In this document: positions 4,011 to 44,466 of the stretch, one piece after another
How positions within the stretch are numbered: position 1 is the stretch's first letter
Layout: the number at the start of each line of letters is the position of its first letter
NCBI RefSeq assembly: GCF_022024115.1
Contig: NZ_CP091792.1
Span: 1,798,001 to 1,862,000, forward strand
DNA length: 64,000 nt
Direction: 5' to 3'
Source: Prevotella communis
GTDB taxonomy: Bacteria; Bacteroidota; Bacteroidia; Bacteroidales; Bacteroidaceae
Notes under the pieces: model-generated
The model's input: the letters and a program-made list of their open reading frames with translations, nothing else
Database searches by the model: none
Told to the model about the DNA's origin: nothing
Made by a program: the position numbers and the translations under genes

Positions 4011-4107
4011 ACGCCATGCACGAGGTGACTCCGAGTGCTGTTGCGATGGCTGACAGCATACTAATGGCTGTTTGAATCGCGAATTTCCAAAATGTCTTGT
4101 TCTTCAT
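4009..4107 (-). CDS. Smalltalk-like peptide, 32 aa
   Basis: Start ATG is at 4107 (an adjacent in-frame ATG at 4110 is possible) and stop TAA at 4009-4011. The peptide opens MKNKTFWKFAIQTAISML and ends GVTSCMA: a short basic N-terminus, then one hydrophobic helix. This is the pattern of the Bacteroidetes 'smalltalk protein' family, which is typically encoded directly downstream of HU-related proteins of the TIGR01201 type, exactly as here (39 bp downstream). The function is unknown; a small membrane peptide is plausible. The stop overlaps the T-tract of the neighbouring terminator. Confidence 0.78.
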   Translation of the reverse strand: MKNKTFWKFAIQTAISMLSAIATALGVTSCMA

Positions 4108-4146
4108 CATTCAGAATTTTAATGTTTCATGTTTAATGTTTAATCC

Positions 4147-4683
4147 TTAAGGATTCACCGGTCCGCCGCCGTTGCCAGATTCGGAGCTAGAACTGCCGCC
4201 TCCGCCGTTCTCAGGGTTCTCGCCGCCTCCGTTTTCAGGGTCTTCCACCTCGCCCGATGTTGAGGTGACGCGCTTCACTTCCTTACCGTCTCTGTCGAAA
4301 CAGGTGATCTGGATGGCGGTCTTTGCCAGCTCCTCCTTCAGGTCTGTGTCGGGCGTGAAGATGATACGACGACTGGTGATCAGCTCTGCCTTTACCTCGT
4401 TCACCGTCTCTACGCTCTTGGCACGCAGACCGAAGCGCATGGTACCCAGTCCAGGCAGTGCCACCGAGTGACCTTCCGTTGCCCATGCCTTGATGACATC
4501 ACCGGCTGCATCCCAGCATGCCTGCATCACGCCTCGGCTCACACCACTGCGAAGGGCAGCCTCCTTGATTACCTTGTCCTGTGTGAGGGCGGTGTACAAC
4601 TCAGGCATCATCACGTAGCGATACTTACCAGCGTAGGTGCCTACCTTCTGCAACTGTTCTTTTGCTTTTACTTTCATTGACAT
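4147..4683 (-). CDS. HU-related DNA-binding protein with Gly/Ser-rich tail (TIGR01201 type)
   Basis: The protein has 178 residues. About residues 10-125 fit the HU/IHF-like fold of the Bacteroidetes HU_rel family: YVMMPELYTALTQDKVIKEAA, then GVSRGVMQACWDAAGDVIK, and VALPGLGTMRFGLRAKSV. Residues about 146-178 are a disordered Gly/Ser/Asn-rich extension, typical of this family and unlike classical HU. Its binding sites and role are unknown; it is likely a nucleoid-associated protein. The smalltalk peptide gene follows. Upstream lie a conserved promoter-leader block and a large palindromic array, which may be its control region or a target. Confidence 0.85.
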   Translation of the reverse strand: MSMKVKAKEQLQKVGTYAGKYRYVMMPELYTALTQDKVIKEAALRSGVSRGVMQACWDAAGDVIKAWATEGHSVALPGLGTMRFGLRAKSVETVNEVKAELITSRRIIFTPDTDLKEELAKTAIQITCFDRDGKEVKRVTSTSGEVEDPENGGGENPENGGGGSSSSESGNGGGPVNP

Positions 4684-6465: not shown

Positions 6466-6702
6466 TTATACTTCCCTCATCCACCACTGGTTGGCATAAA
6501 CTTCCAGGAATTCTGATTCTGTATACCATGTGTAGTCAAACCAATTTGTGGAATCCCCAAACTTTTGACGCTTTGATGAATACTCGAGCCAATGTGTGGA
6601 ACGCAACATACCACCAAGATAATGGCAATATTGCTGTTCCGTATCCGCCTCTCTTATCAATGCCTCGAGCATCTCTTCTGTCTTAACCCATTTCTTTTCC
6701 AT
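6466..6702 (-). CDS. Small hypothetical protein, 78 aa, divergent from the R-M island
   Basis: It starts at ATG 6702 (MEKKWVKTEEMLEALIREA) and is rich in aromatic residues (TNWFDYTWYTESEFLEVY). I see no known motif. A -7 box TACCTTCG stands 12 bp upstream and the GATC-containing repeat array lies directly behind it, so it shares a control region with the dpnD-like gene on the other strand. It may be a regulator or accessory factor of the restriction system, but nothing in the protein shows that; it is too short for a typical HTH to be excluded by eye. Confidence 0.6.
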   Translation of the reverse strand: MEKKWVKTEEMLEALIREADTEQQYCHYLGGMLRSTHWLEYSSKRQKFGDSTNWFDYTWYTESEFLEVYANQWWMREV

Positions 6703-6713
6703 CTTTTTTGCTG

Positions 6714-6721
6714 CGAAGGTA
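6714..6721 (-). promoter_or_regulatory. Promoter -7 box of the 78-aa gene
   Basis: TACCTTCG on the minus strand, a variant of TAnnTTTG, sits 11 bp from ATG 6702. The repeat array begins 4 bp behind it. Confidence 0.6.
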
Positions 6722-6724
6722 AGA

Positions 6725-6786
6725 GATCAAAAGGAGAGCAGCAAAGATTTTTGATCAATTTTGATCTATTTTGTTAAGTTTTGATC
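6725..6786. promoter_or_regulatory. Helically phased TTTTGATC operator-like array overlapping GATC sites
   Basis: TTTTGATC occurs at 6749, 6759 and 6779, a degenerate copy TTTTGTTA sits at 6769, and an inverted copy GATCAAAA at 6725-6732. The four direct units are exactly 10 bp apart, one helical turn. Four of the five copies contain GATC, the recognition sequence of the adjacent DpnII-type system. The array fills the space between two divergent promoters (6714-6721 and 6815-6822). A regulator-binding site whose occupancy depends on GATC methylation is inferred. Confidence 0.7.
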
Positions 6787-6814: not shown

Positions 6815-6822
6815 TAATTTTG
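6815..6822 (+). promoter_or_regulatory. Promoter -7 box of the dpnD-like gene
   Basis: TAATTTTG fits TAnnTTTG. The ATG at 6831 is only 9 bp away, so the mRNA should be leaderless or nearly so. Confidence 0.65.
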
Positions 6823-6830
6823 TGCCTCGT

Positions 6831-7007
6831 ATGAAGAAGTTCAGCATAGAAGTATTGGAGGTGCTAAGCCGTATCGTGGAAGTGGAGGCCTCAGACGAAG
6901 AGGACGCCATCAAACAGGTGAGGCAAAAGTATCGAAAATGCGAGATTGTGCTGGATGATTCTGACTACAAAGAAACAGAATTCAGCGTGAAAGATGAAAA
7001 ATCATAG
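6831..7007 (+). CDS. dpnD: DpnD/PcfM-like small protein
   Basis: The 58-aa protein starts MKKFSIEVLEVLSRIVEVEA and continues DEEDAIKQVRQKYRKCEIVL to a DYKETEF ending. This alternating pattern (xIEVxExLSRxVEVEAxxEEEAIxxVxxxY) is the DpnD/PcfM C-terminal domain family. DpnD is encoded with the DpnI nuclease in pneumococcus and PcfM on a conjugative plasmid; its biochemical role is not established. Here it heads a DpnII-type methylase/nuclease cluster, an unusual partner. It has its own promoter and shares the GATC array with the divergent 78-aa gene. Confidence 0.78.
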   Translation: MKKFSIEVLEVLSRIVEVEASDEEDAIKQVRQKYRKCEIVLDDSDYKETEFSVKDEKS

Positions 7008-7038: not shown

Positions 7039-7046
7039 TATCTTTG
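7039..7046 (+). promoter_or_regulatory. Promoter -7 box before the Dam-type methylase operon
   Basis: TATCTTTG fits TAnnTTTG. With ATG 7318 the leader would be about 265 nt and would contain the 109-bp inverted repeat. Confidence 0.65.
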
Positions 7047-7135
7047 CACCGCTTTTGATACTCATCATGAGCGCAAAATGACATCGTGGAAATTAGATAG
7101 CAGTATCTAGATTCGAAGAGACCTCAGACATAAAA

Positions 7136-7244
7136 AGTCCACCAAACATTTTATACAGAGGGGCTCGGGGAATGCGGATACGCCTATTCTGTATAGGCGT
7201 ACCCCTTCCTTTCCTTCTCTCTGTATGGGCTTCTGTGGTGGACT
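7136..7244 (+). repeat. 109-bp nested inverted repeat in the methylase leader
   Basis: Three nested stems are visible: AGTCCACCA/TGGTGGACT (7136-7144, 7236-7244), TACAGAG/CTCTGTA (7154-7160, 7219-7225) and TACGCCTAT/ATAGGCGTA (7179-7187, 7193-7201). The gene-free stretch 7008-7317 holds this element and a promoter. It could be a miniature mobile element or a structured 5' leader controlling methylase expression. I see no obvious target-site duplication. Confidence 0.8.
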
Positions 7245-7317
7245 GCCTTTGTCTGGAGTTGGAAAACGAAGGTGGTGCGCTTTCTTTTTGTCCACGCCCA
7301 AAACGGCAAAAAGAACG

Positions 7318-8220
7318 ATGAGTACAGAAGCAAAGCCTTTCTTGAAATGGGCTGGAGGCAAAGGACAACTTTTATCACAACTTGACGAACATCTGCCTGG
7401 TGAATTGCAAGGGCAGGCGTTTACTTATATTGAGCCATTCGTGGGTGGTGGAGCAATGCTATTTCACATGCTTCGCAAGTTTCCCAATATCACCCATGCA
7501 GTTATCAACGACATCAATCCGCATCTGGTTACGGCTTATCGCGTCATCAAGCAGCAGCCGGAAGAATTGATACGCCGGCTCTCTGCTTTGGAGCAGGAAT
7601 ACTTCTCGCAGTCTGATGAAGAGGCAAAGAAGGACTATTTCCTTAACGTGAGGAATATCTTCAATGAAACGGTACTGGATGATGTTGAACGCACAAAGTA
7701 TCTGATGTTCCTGAATCGCACCTGTTTTAATGGTTTGTATCGTGTCAACAGCAAAGGCAAGTTCAACGTGCCCTTTGGTCGCAATTCTCATCCTACAATC
7801 TGCAACGTTGATACTATTCTGGCTGACAGTGAGGTATTGAATCGCGCTGATGTGACGATACTGAATGGCGACTTTGAACGGACTGCCGATGAAATGCAAG
7901 AAGGACCTGTCTTCTTCTATTTTGACCCTCCATATCGTCCGCTGAATGCCACCTCCAGCTTCAACTCTTATGCCAAAGAGGAGTTCAACGACGATGAGCA
8001 GATTCGCCTGCGTGATTTCTGCTCTCACCTCAATGAGCAGCCCAATGTTAGGTGGATGCTCAGCAATTCCGATTGTTCTGCCAAGAATCCTGAGGACACT
8101 TTCTTTGAGGACATCTATGCTCCTTTCCACATACATCGCGTCTATGCCTCTCGTGCCATTAATGCGAACCCAGAGAAGCGTGGTAAACTAACCGAACTAT
8201 TGATCAAGAACTATGAATAA
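7318..8220 (+). CDS. dpnM: Dam-type DNA adenine N6-methyltransferase of a DpnII-like R-M system (M1)
   Basis: The 300-aa protein starts at ATG 7318 with PFLKWAGGKGQLL (motif X region), then YIEPFVGGGAMLFH (AdoMet-binding motif I) and FYFDPPY with DPPY at 203-206 (catalytic motif IV); the order is that of alpha-class N6-adenine methylases such as DpnM and Dam. NRTCFNGLYRVN and the G-KFNVPFG stretch are also typical. Known members methylate the A of GATC in double-stranded DNA. An open frame extends upstream to 7225, but the added residues are unlike the family and come from the inverted repeat. It overlaps the nuclease gene by 8 bp. GATC specificity follows from the neighbouring nuclease family. 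Confidence 0.93.
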   Translation: MSTEAKPFLKWAGGKGQLLSQLDEHLPGELQGQAFTYIEPFVGGGAMLFHMLRKFPNITHAVINDINPHLVTAYRVIKQQPEELIRRLSALEQEYFSQSDEEAKKDYFLNVRNIFNETVLDDVERTKYLMFLNRTCFNGLYRVNSKGKFNVPFGRNSHPTICNVDTILADSEVLNRADVTILNGDFERTADEMQEGPVFFYFDPPYRPLNATSSFNSYAKEEFNDDEQIRLRDFCSHLNEQPNVRWMLSNSDCSAKNPEDTFFEDIYAPFHIHRVYASRAINANPEKRGKLTELLIKNYE

Positions 8221-9040
8221 GGATTTTGATTTGTTTATGTCTCAACTTTATGAGACAAATGCGACCCTTGATTTCTATTGTGATTTTGAAAAGATTCAGC
8301 AGAATGTAGATGAGATTTCAATAAGTCTGAATACGCTCAATTATCTCATAGGAAAAGAAGACCTTCGGACTGCAGTAAAATTATTATGGGACAGAGACCC
8401 TCGAGTTTTTCAGGTATTAGACATTCTAATTGCCACTAGACGAAAAGACGACAAGATGTATCTATTGCCTGATAAAACAGCTCGCCCAATAAAAGATTTA
8501 TATTTGTCTGTAGAAGGTGTTATGGAATTTTTAGATGGAACAGGCTTAGCACAAGTTTTTAAAAGCAGGGAAATAAAGAATCTTGTTGACTATGTATTTG
8601 GTGTAGAGACTGGACTTGATTCTAATGCTAGAAAGAATCGGAGTGGACATGTTATGGAGAATTGGGTGCATGACATTTTTACAAAGAATGGGATTCCTTG
8701 CCAAGCTGAAGTTCCATGCAAAAAGATCCCAGACGTTAAAAACGTACTTGGAGAAGATATTAAACGTTTTGACTTTGTGATACGAACCCAAAAACAGACA
8801 TATTTGATAGAGGTGAACTTTTATTCAGGTGGTGGTTCTAAACCAACTGAGACTGCAAGGTCGTATACCAAATTATCCCCCAATATTAATTCAATCAAAG
8901 GTTACAAGTTCGTATGGATTACGGATGGTATAGGATGGCATGGAGTTGGTGCGTTTAAGGAAGCATATGAAAAGATACCATATGTTTATAATCTAACTAC
9001 TATCAAAGAATTTACAGATTTAGTACGCTCGGAATTGTGA
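8213..9040 (+). CDS. dpnB: DpnII/MboI-family restriction endonuclease (GATC)
   Basis: This 275-aa protein matches the DpnII family in length and order: an N-terminal helical part, then RSGHVMENWVHDIF, and a PD-(D/E)xK-like region with KRFDFVIR followed by YLIEVNFYSGGGSKPTE, where D and ExN/E-type residues would hold the metal. The DGIGW and LT(T)I(K)EF ends also fit. The family cleaves unmethylated GATC. The gene starts inside the methylase gene (8 bp overlap) and ends in a GTGA overlap with the second methylase, so all three are translationally coupled. It is visibly more AT-rich than both methylase genes, suggesting separate origin. Confidence 0.92.
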   Translation: MNKDFDLFMSQLYETNATLDFYCDFEKIQQNVDEISISLNTLNYLIGKEDLRTAVKLLWDRDPRVFQVLDILIATRRKDDKMYLLPDKTARPIKDLYLSVEGVMEFLDGTGLAQVFKSREIKNLVDYVFGVETGLDSNARKNRSGHVMENWVHDIFTKNGIPCQAEVPCKKIPDVKNVLGEDIKRFDFVIRTQKQTYLIEVNFYSGGGSKPTETARSYTKLSPNINSIKGYKFVWITDGIGWHGVGAFKEAYEKIPYVYNLTTIKEFTDLVRSEL

Positions 9041-9918
9041 TAATACCTTACTATAAATCTCCCAACCACGATTTCAACCTGCTTCATGGCGATACGTTTG
9101 AGTTGCTGCCGCAGTTCAACTTCAAGTTCGACATGATATTTGCCGACCCTCCATATTTCCTGTCGAGTGGCGGCATCAGCGTGCAGAACGGCAAGGTGGT
9201 TTGTGTGGATAAAGGTGACTGGGACAAAAGTATGTCGCAGGAGGAGATTGATGCCTTTAACATGAAGTGGCTGGCGTTGTGCAGGGAGAAACTGAAGGAC
9301 AATGGCACCATCTGGATTTCCGGCACATACCACAATATCTTTTCTGTGGCCAACTGTCTGACGAAACTTGGCTACAAGATTCTCAATGTCATCACATGGG
9401 CTAAGACTAATCCGCCGCCTAATGTCTCTTGCCGCTACTTCACGTATTCAACGGAGTTTGTTATCTGGGCACGTAAGAAAGCGAAGGTGGCACATTATTA
9501 TAATTATGAGTTGATGAAGCACATTAATGACAATAGACAGATGACAGATGTGTGGCGCCTACCTGCTATTGCGCCCTGGGAGAAGTCGTGCACGAAGCAT
9601 CCTACGCAGAAGCCTCTGGGGCTGCTGAGTCGTATCATCATGGCTTCCACAGAGCCTGGTGCATGGATTCTCGACCCGTTTGCAGGCTCGTCAACAACGG
9701 GTATTGCAGCAAATCTGCTGGGGCGTCGTTATCTGGGCATAGAAAAGGAAGATGTGTTCGCAGGCATCAGCAGGGCTCGTCGTGAAGAGATTGAGAATCC
9801 CAAGACGTTTGCCACTTTCAAGAAAAAGATTCCTGACATCGTCAAGGCCGAATCCCTTCAGCCAGACTGCTTCATTTGTCATGATGAGATAGAAGACAGA
9901 CTCCCTTTCTTGGACTAG
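9037..9918 (+). CDS. dpnA: Second DNA adenine methyltransferase of the DpnII-like system (DpnA type, M2)
   Basis: This 293-aa protein starts at GTG 9037, overlapping the nuclease stop (GTGA). DPPY is at 37-40 (catalytic motif first), a target-recognition region with TNPPPNVSCRYFTYSTEFVIW follows, and DPFAGSSTTGIAA near residue 213 binds AdoMet: the beta-class permuted order. KHPTQKP is also typical. In pneumococcus the matching enzyme also methylates single-stranded DNA and protects incoming plasmid DNA; that property is not shown here. Gene order here is M1-R-M2, unlike pneumococcal M1-M2-R. A terminator follows directly. Confidence 0.92.
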   Translation: MIIPYYKSPNHDFNLLHGDTFELLPQFNFKFDMIFADPPYFLSSGGISVQNGKVVCVDKGDWDKSMSQEEIDAFNMKWLALCREKLKDNGTIWISGTYHNIFSVANCLTKLGYKILNVITWAKTNPPPNVSCRYFTYSTEFVIWARKKAKVAHYYNYELMKHINDNRQMTDVWRLPAIAPWEKSCTKHPTQKPLGLLSRIIMASTEPGAWILDPFAGSSTTGIAANLLGRRYLGIEKEDVFAGISRARREEIENPKTFATFKKKIPDIVKAESLQPDCFICHDEIEDRLPFLD

Positions 9919-10056: not shown

Positions 10057-11088
10057 ATGATAGAATATAAATATTTAAATGGGTTGAAGGTCGCTGATGC
10101 ACAGTATTTCAAGCTTCTAGATACTGCCGTAGAGGATGTCTGGGGGAAGAAAGAATTGGGTAGGAAACCGGAAATTAGAGTGATCGATAACTACGATTAT
10201 ATAGTAAGCCATCCAGATTCAGATGCAACAGATGAAATAGAATTCTATCTTATTTTTCCAACGACTGAACTTTACGTAAATGAGCTCATTTGTTTAGCTG
10301 AGATAATAGAATTTAGTGTAGAATTCATGTCTGTTCTTACATCCAAGAACGGTAAACTGATTGTGGCATGGAAGGAAAAGGTGATATATCAAGACCTAGT
10401 TGAAAAGAAACACGTAGATACAAGTGAATTGGTAAGTGTTGGAAATAAGTTTATTCAAGAAGTAAAATCGCTAAAGAATAATGGGGAACCAGTAAATCTA
10501 AAGGGTATCCGGGAAATACTTAACTGCTTAAAACTCGACTTCGGATGGTACTTGGGTCTAAGATTTGCCGAAATAAAAGATTTTGGCGATAAGTCTTGGT
10601 TCTATTGTCATCAAGGTGATGACACTTATTGTGAAGACTATTTGAAGACAGTTAAATCTGGAAATTATATGACCCCTTTTTGGAAGTATTATGATTTTGC
10701 CCCAATTTATGATATTTATAAACATATGATAGTGAAATGGTCAGAGATGGGTGTTTGGCAAGCTTATCTCTTGAGTAAGGCGACGGCTTTACTCCCATTT
10801 GTGTGGCATGGAGGTTATGGCAGAAAGACCCTTTTGTTCTGTAAGGAAGATAAAGCGAAAATTCCTCCATTATTCAAGCGGATAGATATTCCTGATGTGG
10901 AAGATGACCTTAGTCCAAAAGTAAGGATAGAAGGTAATGTAGCCACGGTAAGTTGCTGTTTCTGGAATGACTGGAGAGGTCTTTACAGAGAAACTGAGAA
11001 GATAACTTTAAATGATACAAGACTAGAGTTTGACGGAAACTCTAAAATAGATGTATTATTTAAATATGAATGTGGGGTAAGATATTGA
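10057..11088 (+). CDS. Hypothetical protein, 343 aa
   Basis: I do not recognise the family. The protein is soluble-looking, with no signal peptide or membrane helix; it is rich in aromatic and acidic residues (GWYLGLRFAEIKDFGDKSWF, then WHGGYGRKTLLF) and ends in a beta-rich part (VATVSCCFWNDW). The DNA is AT-rich compared with core genes of the window, like the nuclease genes on either side. It has its own promoter and sits between a DpnII system and a nuclease-like protein, which makes a defence-related role possible but unproven. Confidence 0.65.
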   Translation: MIEYKYLNGLKVADAQYFKLLDTAVEDVWGKKELGRKPEIRVIDNYDYIVSHPDSDATDEIEFYLIFPTTELYVNELICLAEIIEFSVEFMSVLTSKNGKLIVAWKEKVIYQDLVEKKHVDTSELVSVGNKFIQEVKSLKNNGEPVNLKGIREILNCLKLDFGWYLGLRFAEIKDFGDKSWFYCHQGDDTYCEDYLKTVKSGNYMTPFWKYYDFAPIYDIYKHMIVKWSEMGVWQAYLLSKATALLPFVWHGGYGRKTLLFCKEDKAKIPPLFKRIDIPDVEDDLSPKVRIEGNVATVSCCFWNDWRGLYRETEKITLNDTRLEFDGNSKIDVLFKYECGVRY

Positions 11089-11199
11089 TAAAGAACATTA
11101 GTGACAGGTCTATATCTCGGCTGATATAAGATGACATGCCCCTGGCAACTTGATAATGAAGAAATAATGAAATGTCTTGCATGTTTCCTTAAAAACTCT

Positions 11200-11207
11200 T
11201 ATATTTG
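11200..11207 (+). promoter_or_regulatory. Promoter -7 box immediately before ATG 11212
   Basis: TATATTTG fits TAnnTTTG and ends 5 bp before ATG 11212, so the transcript should be leaderless. This decides the start against the in-frame ATG at 11131. Confidence 0.75.
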
Positions 11208-11211
11208 CAGC

Positions 11212-11928
11212 ATGAAAGTAACTCAGGAAGAACAAGTAATTGAAGTGCTTCGTAATGAAGGTGGTTACGCCACATTACGAAAGCTTAATGGTCTTATTGA
11301 CTTTTCATCCTGGGCTACAAAGACACCTGAGGCTTCTGTAAGACGAATTGTTCAGAATAGTAAACGTATTTTTAGAATACGACCAGGACTGTGGGCATTA
11401 GAGGAAATGCGCAATGATGTATTGAATCAATTAAGTATTAATCCTGAGGATAAGAAAAGTGAGGATTTGTTTACTCATGGATATTATCAAGGATTGCTTG
11501 TCGAAATCGGAAAGTATCGTCATCAAAGAACTTATGTACCTGCTCAAGATCAAAACAGAGTTTTTATAGATAAAAAACTCGGAGAGATTACAGATACTAC
11601 TATATTACCAGATTTTACTCATGAAGAACTAAAGAGAAAAGCTCGTACGATAGATGTAATTTGGTTCAATGAACGAAGCATGCCAACAGATTTCTATGAA
11701 GTTGAGCATACCACAGATATAAAGAACTCACTATCCAAGTTCTACGAACTACAAGATTTTAACTCGGGTTTCTATATTGTGGCAGATGTTTGTAGAAAGA
11801 ACGAGTTTGAAGATAAACTTCATGCATCCATGTTTTCTTCAATAGAGAACCGCGTAAAATTCCTGTCCTATGATCAAGTAGCAGATTTATACCAAGGACT
11901 GAAAATCGTAGATAGAAGCCTCTGGTAG
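11212..11928 (+). CDS. Winged-helix (HARE-HTH-like) plus restriction-nuclease-like protein
   Basis: This 238-aa protein begins MKVTQEEQVIEVLRNEGGYA. Residues about 1-65 resemble a HARE-HTH or similar winged helix: VIEVLxxEGGYATLxxL, W-TKTPEASVRRIVQ, FRIRPGLWAL. The C-terminal half has D in RTIDVIWF followed by FYEVEHTTDIKNSLSKFYEL, an arrangement (D...ExE/H) seen in PD-(D/E)xK restriction nucleases, and FYIVAD. HARE-HTH modules fused to restriction nucleases have been predicted to act on modified DNA; by that analogy this could be a modification-linked nuclease. Family assignment is by eye. No methylase is adjacent to it apart from the GATC system 1.3 kb upstream. Confidence 0.65.
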   Translation: MKVTQEEQVIEVLRNEGGYATLRKLNGLIDFSSWATKTPEASVRRIVQNSKRIFRIRPGLWALEEMRNDVLNQLSINPEDKKSEDLFTHGYYQGLLVEIGKYRHQRTYVPAQDQNRVFIDKKLGEITDTTILPDFTHEELKRKARTIDVIWFNERSMPTDFYEVEHTTDIKNSLSKFYELQDFNSGFYIVADVCRKNEFEDKLHASMFSSIENRVKFLSYDQVADLYQGLKIVDRSLW

Positions 11929-18547: not shown

Positions 18548-19999
18548 TTAGATGCGTTTCAAAACGAGCAACAGGTGATCCCATACCATCTCAACGGTGG
18601 GGATATACAGGCGCTCATCAGGTGTGTGAACATCACGCAGCGTGGGACCGAACGAGATCATGTCGATATTGGGATAGCGTTCTGAGAAGAGACCGCACTC
18701 CAGACCGGCGTGGATACCACGTACAACAGGCTCCCTGCCAAACAGCTCCTTGTAGGTCTCAACGACAGTATCGCGCAACTTGCTCTCAGCTCTCATCTTC
18801 CAGGCGGGATAGCCGTCGCTGCTGTGGGCCTCGGCACCAGCCAGTTGGAAGGTAGCTACGATGGTGGCACACATATTGTCGAGATTAGACATCACGTTAG
18901 AACGCTGTGAGGAGAGAATTGTTATTTCTGTCTCTGCAGAGTGGATAGCAGCAATGTTTGAAGAAGTCTCTACCATACCGTTTAGTTCGGGATCCTGACA
19001 GATAGCGTAGATACCATTGTCCACAGCCTGTAGTGCCCATACGAAATTGCGGGCTACCTGAGCCTCGATAACTGGCTCTGCCTCTGTGCTCTCCATCGAC
19101 CACACCATCTGGGTATCGGTCACATGGAACTCGTCCTCTACCTGGGCAGAGAAAACGTTCCAGTCGGCCTTCACGTTCTCCTTGACATCATGGGGAACGG
19201 CGATGACAAACATACCGTCGCGGGGAATGGCATTGTGGAGCTTGCCGGAATGGAACTGTGCCAGGCGTACGCCCTCGTAGCGGTTCATGGTCTGGAAGAG
19301 GAAGCGGCCCAGCAGTTTGATGGCGTTGGCACGCTTCTTGTTGATATCATCACCAGAGTGACCACCCGTCAGACCTTTCAGTTGGGCACGCAGGAAGAAT
19401 GAACCGGCAGGAGCCTCCTCACGCTTGAAGGTGAACTTGGCCTGCGTGTTGCGACCACCGGCGCATGATACGAACATCTCGCCCTCGTCCTCAGAATCGA
19501 GGTTGATGAGGTAGTCGCCGGTCATGAAGCCTGACTTCATGCCCTCGGCACCGCTAAGACCTGTCTCCTCGTCGCGGGTGAACACGCACTCCAGGGGGCC
19601 GTGCTCGATATCCTGGGCCTCAAGGATAGCCAGTTCGATAGCGCAACCGATACCGTCGTCGGCACCCAGTGTGGTACCCTTGGCCTTCAGCCAGTCGCCG
19701 TCAACATAGGTCTGGATGGCGTCCTTGTCGAAATCGAAGTCAACATCCACCAGCTTGTCGCATACCATATCCATATGGCTCTGCAGAATCACGGTCTTCT
19801 TGTTCTCGTATCCCTTGGTGGCTGGTTTGCGGATCAGCACATTACCCGTCTCGTCGACTTTTGTCTCAAGACCATGGCTCTCGCCCCAGTTCTTGAGGTA
19901 TTCAATCATCTTTTCTTCACGTTTGGAAGGACGGGGAATTTCGTTTATTTTAGCAAACTGTTCAAATACAGAAGCAGGTTTTAGTGTGCTTTTATTCAT
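18548..19999 (-). CDS. pepD: Aminoacyl-histidine dipeptidase (PepD/carnosinase-like, M20)
   Basis: This 483-aa protein has the M20C metal-site motifs SHMDMV (H75, D77), GADDGIG (D114/D115) and the catalytic DEETGLSG (E144/E145), then the lid domain and a C-terminal VRGIHAGLECGLF stretch. It hydrolyses Xaa-His and broader dipeptides in the cytoplasm, in line with peptide use by Prevotella. It is transcribed from a promoter overlapping the divergent promoter of the 70-aa gene. Length is that of the family. Confidence 0.94.
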   Translation of the reverse strand: MNKSTLKPASVFEQFAKINEIPRPSKREEKMIEYLKNWGESHGLETKVDETGNVLIRKPATKGYENKKTVILQSHMDMVCDKLVDVDFDFDKDAIQTYVDGDWLKAKGTTLGADDGIGCAIELAILEAQDIEHGPLECVFTRDEETGLSGAEGMKSGFMTGDYLINLDSEDEGEMFVSCAGGRNTQAKFTFKREEAPAGSFFLRAQLKGLTGGHSGDDINKKRANAIKLLGRFLFQTMNRYEGVRLAQFHSGKLHNAIPRDGMFVIAVPHDVKENVKADWNVFSAQVEDEFHVTDTQMVWSMESTEAEPVIEAQVARNFVWALQAVDNGIYAICQDPELNGMVETSSNIAAIHSAETEITILSSQRSNVMSNLDNMCATIVATFQLAGAEAHSSDGYPAWKMRAESKLRDTVVETYKELFGREPVVRGIHAGLECGLFSERYPNIDMISFGPTLRDVHTPDERLYIPTVEMVWDHLLLVLKRI

Positions 20000-20038
20000 T
20001 TTTAATGTTTTATTGTTTAATGTTTAATATTTAATTAT

Positions 20039-20046
20039 TACCTTTG
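20039..20046 (+). promoter_or_regulatory. Promoter -7 box of the 70-aa membrane protein gene
   Basis: TACCTTTG fits TAnnTTTG, 20 bp before ATG 20067. It lies 7 bp from the opposing pepD box, so the two polymerases would compete. Confidence 0.75.
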
Positions 20047-44105: not shown

Positions 44106-44316
44106 TTACTCACTTACAACTTACTCACTTCGGACATCTGTATTCTGAGATTATCTCTAAACAGAATTTTTATATTATAATATTAATATATTAATATTAT
44201 AATATAAGATATATTTTAGTATATTACTTCTTAATTTATCCATTTATTCCTTTTCCATATCCAATCCGATTTAGGAAAACCTAAATGTCCGAAGTGAGTA
44301 AGTTGTAAGTGAGTAA
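44106..44316. repeat. Large inverted-repeat array with perfect 36-bp AT palindrome
   Basis: A perfect 32-bp inverted repeat (44106-44137 and 44285-44316) is made of TTACTCAC/TTACAAC units and ends CGGACAT/ATGTCCG. In the centre 44171-44206 is a perfect 36-bp palindrome of A and T only (begins TATATTATAATATTAA). Layout equals the array at 4906-5062 although the unit sequence differs. The sequence 44317-44466 after it shows no gene or clear signal. Confidence 0.9.
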
Positions 44317-44466
44317 GTTTTTCTGCACTACGCATTGTAAACTAGCAATGAGCGAAATGTACCGCGGCTGGAAAATGGCTCGAGAATGATGAAAAGAACC
44401 TTTCTATTTTCTTTGCCTATTTCTAACGAGAATCTGCATTATGATAAATAGATGTTTTTTTAAGAA

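Follow-up and report, generated by a model that had tools for sequence, protein, structure and literature searches.

Phased GATC sites and a conserved TTAA slot form a candidate methylation-sensitive operator upstream of dpnD in a DpnII-type restriction-modification cassette

The DNA analyzed here (the window, a single stretch of 64 kb) carries a complete DpnII-type restriction-modification (R-M) system directed at GATC, encoded by four genes on the forward strand. The first, dpnD (6831-7007), specifies a 58-aa protein of the DpnD/PcfM family (PF14207, 44.2 bits against a cut-off of 25). It is followed by dpnM (7318-8220), encoding a Dam-type adenine methyltransferase (PF02086; best PDB match 2dpm, methyltransferase DpnII 1), by the gene for the DpnII restriction endonuclease (8213-9040; PF04556, E 5.3e-93), and by a second, dpnA-type methyltransferase gene (9037-9918; PF01555, with PDB matches to CcrM and DpnA). 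The endonuclease family and the presence of both a Dam-type and a DpnA-type methylase place the system among the DpnII-type R-M systems, and from this homology and the avoidance of GATC described below we infer that it cleaves and methylates GATC. Downstream of the cassette, a 343-aa open reading frame (10057-11088) with no Pfam or PADLOC match and no relative among the other loci we fetched separates dpnA from an endonuclease-like protein (11131-11928) with a weak HARE-HTH match below the Pfam cut-off (PADLOC REase_II, E 3e-6). Short repeats at 4104-4157, 19995-20042, 44106-44141, and 44283-44318 are shared with the flank of the corresponding cassette in G620, a second genome of the same species (L058, 5285-5405), and are probably dispersed elements.

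The AlphaFold model of the window DpnD consists of a two-stranded beta-hairpin and one long helix (mean pLDDT 94), with no helix-turn-helix, and it yielded neither a significant fold match nor a recognizable DNA-binding fold. The absence of a helix-turn-helix makes a role for DpnD as a stand-alone DNA reader uncertain. Our literature search found no described role for the DpnD/PcfM family.

Upstream of dpnD lie four slots at exact 10-bp steps on the forward strand: GATC at 6753-6756 (slot 1), GATC at 6763-6766 (slot 2), GTTAA at 6773-6777 (slot 3), and GATC at 6783-6786 (slot 4, proximal to the promoter). Slot 1 sits in a unit TTTTGATCAA that starts at 6749, and slots 2 and 4 sit in units TTTTGATCTA that start at 6759 and 6779. 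All three units begin with TTTTGATC, at 6749, 6759, and 6779, while TTTTGTTA begins at 6769 and GATCAAAA occupies 6725-6732. A preliminary description of this DNA, made from the sequence alone, had reported units at 10-bp steps before dpnD, and these are present as GATC/GATC/GTTAA/GATC. It had also placed the array between a divergent 78-aa gene and dpnD, about 0.5 kb before the methylase gene; the gene calls are correct, and dpnM begins 0.53 kb after the array. The unit at 6769, which it took to be degenerate, is instead a conserved nTTAA slot that is not a methylation target and that ranks among the best conserved parts of the array.

The dpnD promoter has a -7 box, TAATTTTG, at 6815-6822, 32 bp after the last GATC; the consensus given for this box is TAnnTTTG (PMC7366714). 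TTTG is absent at the usual -33 place here, and none of 36 dpnD promoters has it 19-21 bp from the -7 box. We dropped the missing -33 box as a sign of an activator, since the promoters of the dpnM leader mostly lack it too (3/29 have one, although our script may have picked the wrong -7 box in a few of them, such as L150 and L152). On the reverse strand, a divergent promoter (6714-6745) comprises TTTG (6745-6742), a 20-bp spacer, and TACCTTCG (6721-6714), and precedes the 78-aa open reading frame (6466-6702), which has no Pfam or NCBIfam match. The inverted copy that the preliminary description had counted with the array at 6725 does exist, but its GATC (6725-6728, reverse strand) belongs to this divergent promoter, 3 bp from the -7 box, an arrangement present in 11 of the 36 distinct upstream regions of standalone dpnD genes. 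Nor can the 78-aa protein, proposed earlier as a possible reader of the array, serve in that role generally: near-full-length relatives occur at only 5 of these 36 loci (plus a 28-residue piece at L139), and other array-bearing loci have a different divergent gene (L032, L035) or none visible (L054, L056).

A second regulatory element lies between dpnD and dpnM. A -7 box, TATCTTTG (7039-7046, forward strand), recognized in the sequence and by comparison of leader promoters, precedes a conserved structured leader RNA of dpnM of ~270 nt (7050-7317, with an approximate 5′ end) that is supported by fold, alignment, and covariation. The predicted fold of 7040-7330 is far more stable than those of shuffled sequences (z -6.64), the leader and its own -7 box are kept in 28/28 aligned loci, and the consensus contains 67 base pairs, nine of them with two-sided changes. 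An Rfam scan of the leader gave no match near the gathering score. One helix occurs as two haplotypes, CTCAGACA/TGTCTGGAG and TTTTAACG/CGTTAAGTGG, and the 5′ part of the leader (7059-7064) can pair with the start region of dpnM (7319-7324), a pairing that could act as a translation switch. At one locus (L133), a cassette with array, dpnD, and leader lacks dpnM, and the leader runs directly into endonuclease sequence, by deletion or assembly error. The cassette may be under two controls, the dpnD promoter and the dpnM leader; the separate -7 box and the long conserved leader of dpnM make it uncertain whether the array feeds back on dpnM directly.

We asked how unusual the array is by chance. 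GATC is depleted in the window as a whole (108 found against 305 expected) and in the coding DNA, dpnD through dpnA, that follows the array (30 against 121 expected, summed over eight cassettes). CTAG is depleted even more strongly in the window (31 against 200 expected). The preliminary description had held that four GATC sites in 62 bp far exceed chance. The sites are indeed rare in the window, but crowding as such is only modestly unusual: when 108 sites were placed at random 20,000 times, 258 placements had at least four GATC within some 62-bp stretch of 64 kb, as did 77 of 200 first-order Markov sequences, a frequency that makes plain crowding weak as proof. The pair pattern TTTTGATCnnTTTTGATC occurred on the forward strand in none of 200 first-order Markov sequences. 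In the 3.57-Mb genome from which the window derives, this pair with at most one mismatch has one match against four for a backward-read control; being no rarer than its control, the pair alone is not decisive, and we set it aside as own-genome proof. The four-slot pattern has one exact match in the same genome and one with a single mismatch, the latter a decayed scar, and its backward control has three matches with up to two mismatches. With the chance statistics thus mixed, the weight of the case rests on conservation.

The scar lies around C1:2004766-2004799 on the minus strand (L053, 4235-4299), as a 65-bp match to the array and dpnD promoter. After this match comes a short segment that looks by eye like the end of dpnA, a part for which BLAST gave no report. 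The scar is also present in G620 (L049) and is probably what remains of a second, deleted R-M cassette.

Homologous loci were gathered by several routes. Searching contigs for the endonuclease yielded 13 loci, of which three carry dpnD and the array: L032 and L034, both from Prevotella-type metagenome-assembled genomes, and L035. Further loci came from 399 genomes of the family, searched with a 28-base pattern, with dpnM, and with a DpnD profile, and from 398 genomes of the genus, searched with a DpnD profile, of which 31 had DpnD at E 1e-15 or better (30 loci were taken automatically and that of G832 by hand). The pattern search of the family genomes, which is blind to DpnD, found eight places: five dpnD units, two copies of one scar, and one that is unrelated. 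A match in G409 (L055, two mismatches), which precedes another gene rather than an R-M unit, was rejected as chance. Sought in this way upstream of dpnD and dpnM in relatives, as the preliminary description had proposed, the array proved to be kept in dozens of genomes rather than absent from all homologous loci.

Among 38 dpnD loci with 36 distinct upstream regions, the distance from a GATC to the dpnD start is exactly 78 bp in 30 loci, 68 bp in 31, and 48 bp in 33, with a few others shifted by one base. When the standalone upstream regions are aligned, the slot letters G, A, and C carry about 1.1 to 2.0 bits, and no column between the array and the -7 box exceeds 1.0 bit. The dpnM gene begins 454-544 bp after the dpnD start in 29/30 loci, and its identity to the window's dpnM ranges from about 57 to 100% over the same array.

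We then compiled 47 distinct DpnD loci: 36 standalone, nine in which DpnD is fused to a methylase, L102, and L169. L034 and L032 were dropped as duplicates of L128 and L129, as were repeat ids of one locus, and a further fusion (L170, from G414) was kept outside this set. Across these loci, GATC occupies slot 1 in 38 (nTTAA in three), slot 2 in 43, and slot 4 in all 47, and slot 3 reads nTTA in all 47 (nTTAA in 45, GATC in none); as the loci are kin by descent and mostly from one genus, these counts are not independent. The distance from slot 4 to the TAnnTTTG-like -7 box is 32 bp in 46 loci and 33 bp in one. Both this spacing and the 47/47 for slot 4 arise partly by construction, since slot 4 was picked as the GATC 28-36 bp before a -7-like box (fallback 30-34) that lay nearest to 32 bp; no locus lacked such a pair. 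The distance from the -7 box to the ATG varies from 15 to 52 bp, and a spacing that is fixed to the box while the box-to-ATG distance varies ties the array to the promoter and not to the gene start. Some arrays are partial or rearranged: L078 and L102 keep only slots 3 and 4, L056 has lost the GATC of slot 2, and L077 has slots 3 and 4 near the promoter plus a second set of GATCs in 0/10/30 spacing, built of TTTAGATC units and located 29 bp upstream.

Four things can be read directly from the DNA: the array is there, it is conserved, it keeps a fixed distance to a -7-like box, and it goes closely with DpnD-headed units. Together, the promoter spacing, the 10-bp phasing, the conserved words, and this linkage indicate that the array is very probably a dedicated operator of the dpnD unit. 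In G620 the array, dpnD, and dpnM are near-identical to those of the window; its endonuclease (272 aa) has a different N-terminal part from that encoded at 8213-9040, and since the rest of the cassette start is so similar, the endonuclease seems to have been exchanged within the cassette.

The array is also largely confined to loci with DpnD. For 29 dpnM genes without dpnD (28 distinct), the 903-1500 bp of upstream DNA contain neither GATC-N6-GATC nor GTTAA-N5-GATC. This test covered these two patterns and the 0/10/30 set, upstream of dpnM only, and its count excludes the dpnM loci of the order sample (L002-L023, L026, L027), which have only 383-605 bp of upstream DNA. In 30 genomes of the family with a DpnD-like match, 16 copies are found at a dpnM or dpnA unit, and 16/16 have at least slots 3 and 4. 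The 0/10/30 pattern is absent from 13 loci with a DpnD relative and no dpnM or dpnA gene in the stretch examined, and no array was seen in the upstream DNA of the seven of these that we read. One of the 13 genomes with such an array-less relative, G414, has a second copy that forms an array-bearing fusion to DpnA. DpnD accompanies the array in nearly every case. In G687 (L102), DpnD lies beside a HARE-type protein with slots 3 and 4 only, and the second DpnD-like gene of the window's own genome has no array. Two loci without the array are exceptions to the rule: L021, from another family of the order, has a DpnD-like open reading frame beside dpnM, and L109 has DpnD beside a HARE-type protein.

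In contrast to the separate gene of the window, DpnD forms the N-terminal domain of a fusion with a DpnA-type methylase at nine loci from the family search (one of them also supported by Pfam) and in G414. The nine fusion loci have GATC at slot 2, nTTA at slot 3, and GATC at slot 4 without exception (9/9 each); slot 1 varies, with GATC at six loci, CTTAA at two, and GTTCT at one. In seven of the nine, an extra GATC lies downstream of slot 4, a short way before the -7 box. Flanks and neighboring genes differ at these loci, and the GATC and TTA slots remain. TTTT precedes only 4/18 GATCs in the six fusion arrays used for this count, compared with 58/104 in the standalone type. That these flanks are mostly lost while the slots persist suggests that GATC and TTAA form the core of the element. 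For the G414 fusion, a 360-aa open frame, we predicted an array before fetching the upstream DNA and then found GATC, GATC, GTTAT, and GATC at 10-bp steps. At L169, dpnD and dpnA are separate neighbors, and slots 2-4 are present. The fusion of DpnD to DpnA elsewhere suggests that DpnD acts together with the methylase.

Three loci have a DpnI-type gene immediately before the array and the DpnD and DpnA genes (L157, 2400-3074; L159, 2085-2858; L169, 1811-2578), assigned by a Pfam match in the first two and by sequence likeness in the third. DpnI cuts methylated GATC, so a neighboring GATC methylase would be harmful unless it were silent or had another target, and the occurrence of DpnI-type genes beside the same operator fits poorly with a simple methylation model. 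A HARE-type endonuclease-like protein is encoded upstream of the array in five DpnD-DpnA loci and in L165 (L156, L158, L161, L162, L164, L165).

What might the array do? Our preferred reading, which we consider reasonably probable, is that it is an operator of the dpnD unit bound cooperatively by a factor that the GATC R-M system itself makes, in a methylation-sensitive manner; here we infer the binding, its sensitivity, the reader, and the sign of the effect. Because three of the four slots coincide with the word that the system methylates, control by methylation is the most likely purpose, by analogy with CfrBI, AhdI, LlaDII, and EcoRII. Promoter-methylation control and methylase-repressor fusions are described for R-M systems (PMC12707154), a Prevotella intermedia GATC methylase is reported to make m6A at GATC (PMC5608340), and in a Streptococcus mutans strain with a DpnII system, changing one GATC in the purC promoter is reported to raise output about threefold (PMC12542736).

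Under this preferred reading, the four slots would bind protein along the same side of the helix, and the array would end 32 bp ahead of the -7 box, just upstream of the sigma contact, with three slots open to methylation and one that cannot be methylated. The reader would most plausibly be a DpnA-type methylase acting with the DpnD domain, separate here and fused elsewhere. It would bind the slots in a cooperative way as long as the GATCs remain un- or hemimethylated, and the nTTAA slot would anchor it independently of methylation. Bound reader would help transcription of the dpnD unit, and full methylation would weaken binding and turn the unit down. The outcome would be strong expression when the system arrives in an unmethylated cell, settling later to a low steady level. 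On entering a new host, an R-M system has to produce its methylase ahead of its endonuclease. We favor activation by the un- or hemimethylated array because its slots are located on the upstream side of the core promoter and stop near the point at which an activator would contact sigma, though we hold this sign with low confidence.

Several other readings share part of this evidence. The operator could be dedicated and yet blind to methylation, with a host or system protein, for instance the methylase as autoregulator, reading the phased TGATC and GTTAA words. A binding protein alone would account for the conservation, the phasing, and the fixed distance to the promoter, the nTTAA slot persists though it cannot be methylated, and control by methylase-repressors is described as sometimes insensitive to catalysis (PMC12707154). 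Against this, three slots hold exactly the word that the system targets, and GATC is avoided in the rest of the cassette; we regard a methylation-blind operator as possible but rather doubtful. We think it unlikely, though attractive, that DpnD founds a new class of R-M controller, in which a domain without a helix-turn-helix, either free-standing or joined to the methylase, works with a methylation-counting operator as an epigenetic switch that senses the methylation regime of the cell; the idea draws on the presence of the same operator at DpnII systems, which cut unmethylated GATC, and beside DpnI systems, which cut the methylated site.

Phased T-tracts could curve the DNA upstream of the promoter, as a bent UP-like element in which GATC is incidental, and TTTT runs do recur at 10-bp steps in the window and before more than half of the standalone-type GATCs. 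Curvature has no need of GATC, however, and in the six fusion arrays the T-tracts have largely gone while the GATC and TTA slots remain, so T-tracts are not the conserved property and bending is a very improbable explanation. The cluster packs four target sites of the enzyme into 62 bp next to the genes of the system, and might instead be a self-target that the endonuclease cuts, or on which the methylase loads, when protection fails. We give this little credence, as it leaves the nTTAA slot, the 10-bp steps, and the 32-bp spacing to the -7 box unexplained. Shared descent might make the upstream regions alike simply because the cassettes are recent copies, and the standalone loci do come from one family, most of them from one genus. 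Yet the columns between array and box are less conserved than the slot letters, dpnM has diverged widely behind the same array, and the fusion loci retain little beyond the slots; we therefore give shared descent alone next to no credence.

The system can be compared with several known ones. Homologs of dpnM, the endonuclease gene, and dpnA, along with a DpnD-family gene, are shared with the DpnI/DpnII systems of pneumococcus, where we take dpnD to lie beside dpnC. As in R-M systems with a C-protein, a small gene heads the unit and repeats precede its promoter; unlike in those systems, the operator is built of methylation targets, the modeled DpnD lacks a helix-turn-helix, and neither DpnD nor the 78-aa protein came up as a helix-turn-helix controller in Pfam and NCBIfam scans. 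The regulatory methylases Ecl18kI, SsoII, and EcoRII likewise have a small N-terminal domain on the methylase, as do the fusion relatives here, and a conserved operator before the gene. DpnD differs from them in being a separate gene in the window, and in lacking, by the AlphaFold model, the helix-turn-helix domain of the Ecl18kI/EcoRII type. GATC sites phased by whole helical turns are also a feature of SeqA and Dam-sensitive switches. Efficient binding of SeqA in vitro is reported to need two GATCs two to three turns apart (PMC5145175), whereas the basic step in the window is one turn and the mark would be set by the system's own methylases.

With R-M systems controlled by promoter methylation, the window shares recognition sites of its own in the promoter region, conserved in relatives. 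CfrBI, AhdI, and LlaDII similarly have their own recognition sites in the promoter region of the unit that contains the methylase, and in CfrBI the site lies in the overlapping promoters of the endonuclease and methylase genes (PMC12707154). The window differs from CfrBI in having three sites plus a TTAA slot, spaced by 10 bp and placed ahead of the core promoter. The same source describes such control as logical and apparently rarely used (PMC12707154), and among the records listed by our literature search there was no report of a phased GATC operator of this kind. An operator built from the system's own targets in many Prevotella-type genomes would provide a natural, testable methylation sensor, one that may sense whether the cell's DNA is protected, and would offer a functional lead for the DpnD/PcfM family. 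The array is likely to represent a new variant among methylation-controlled R-M promoters.
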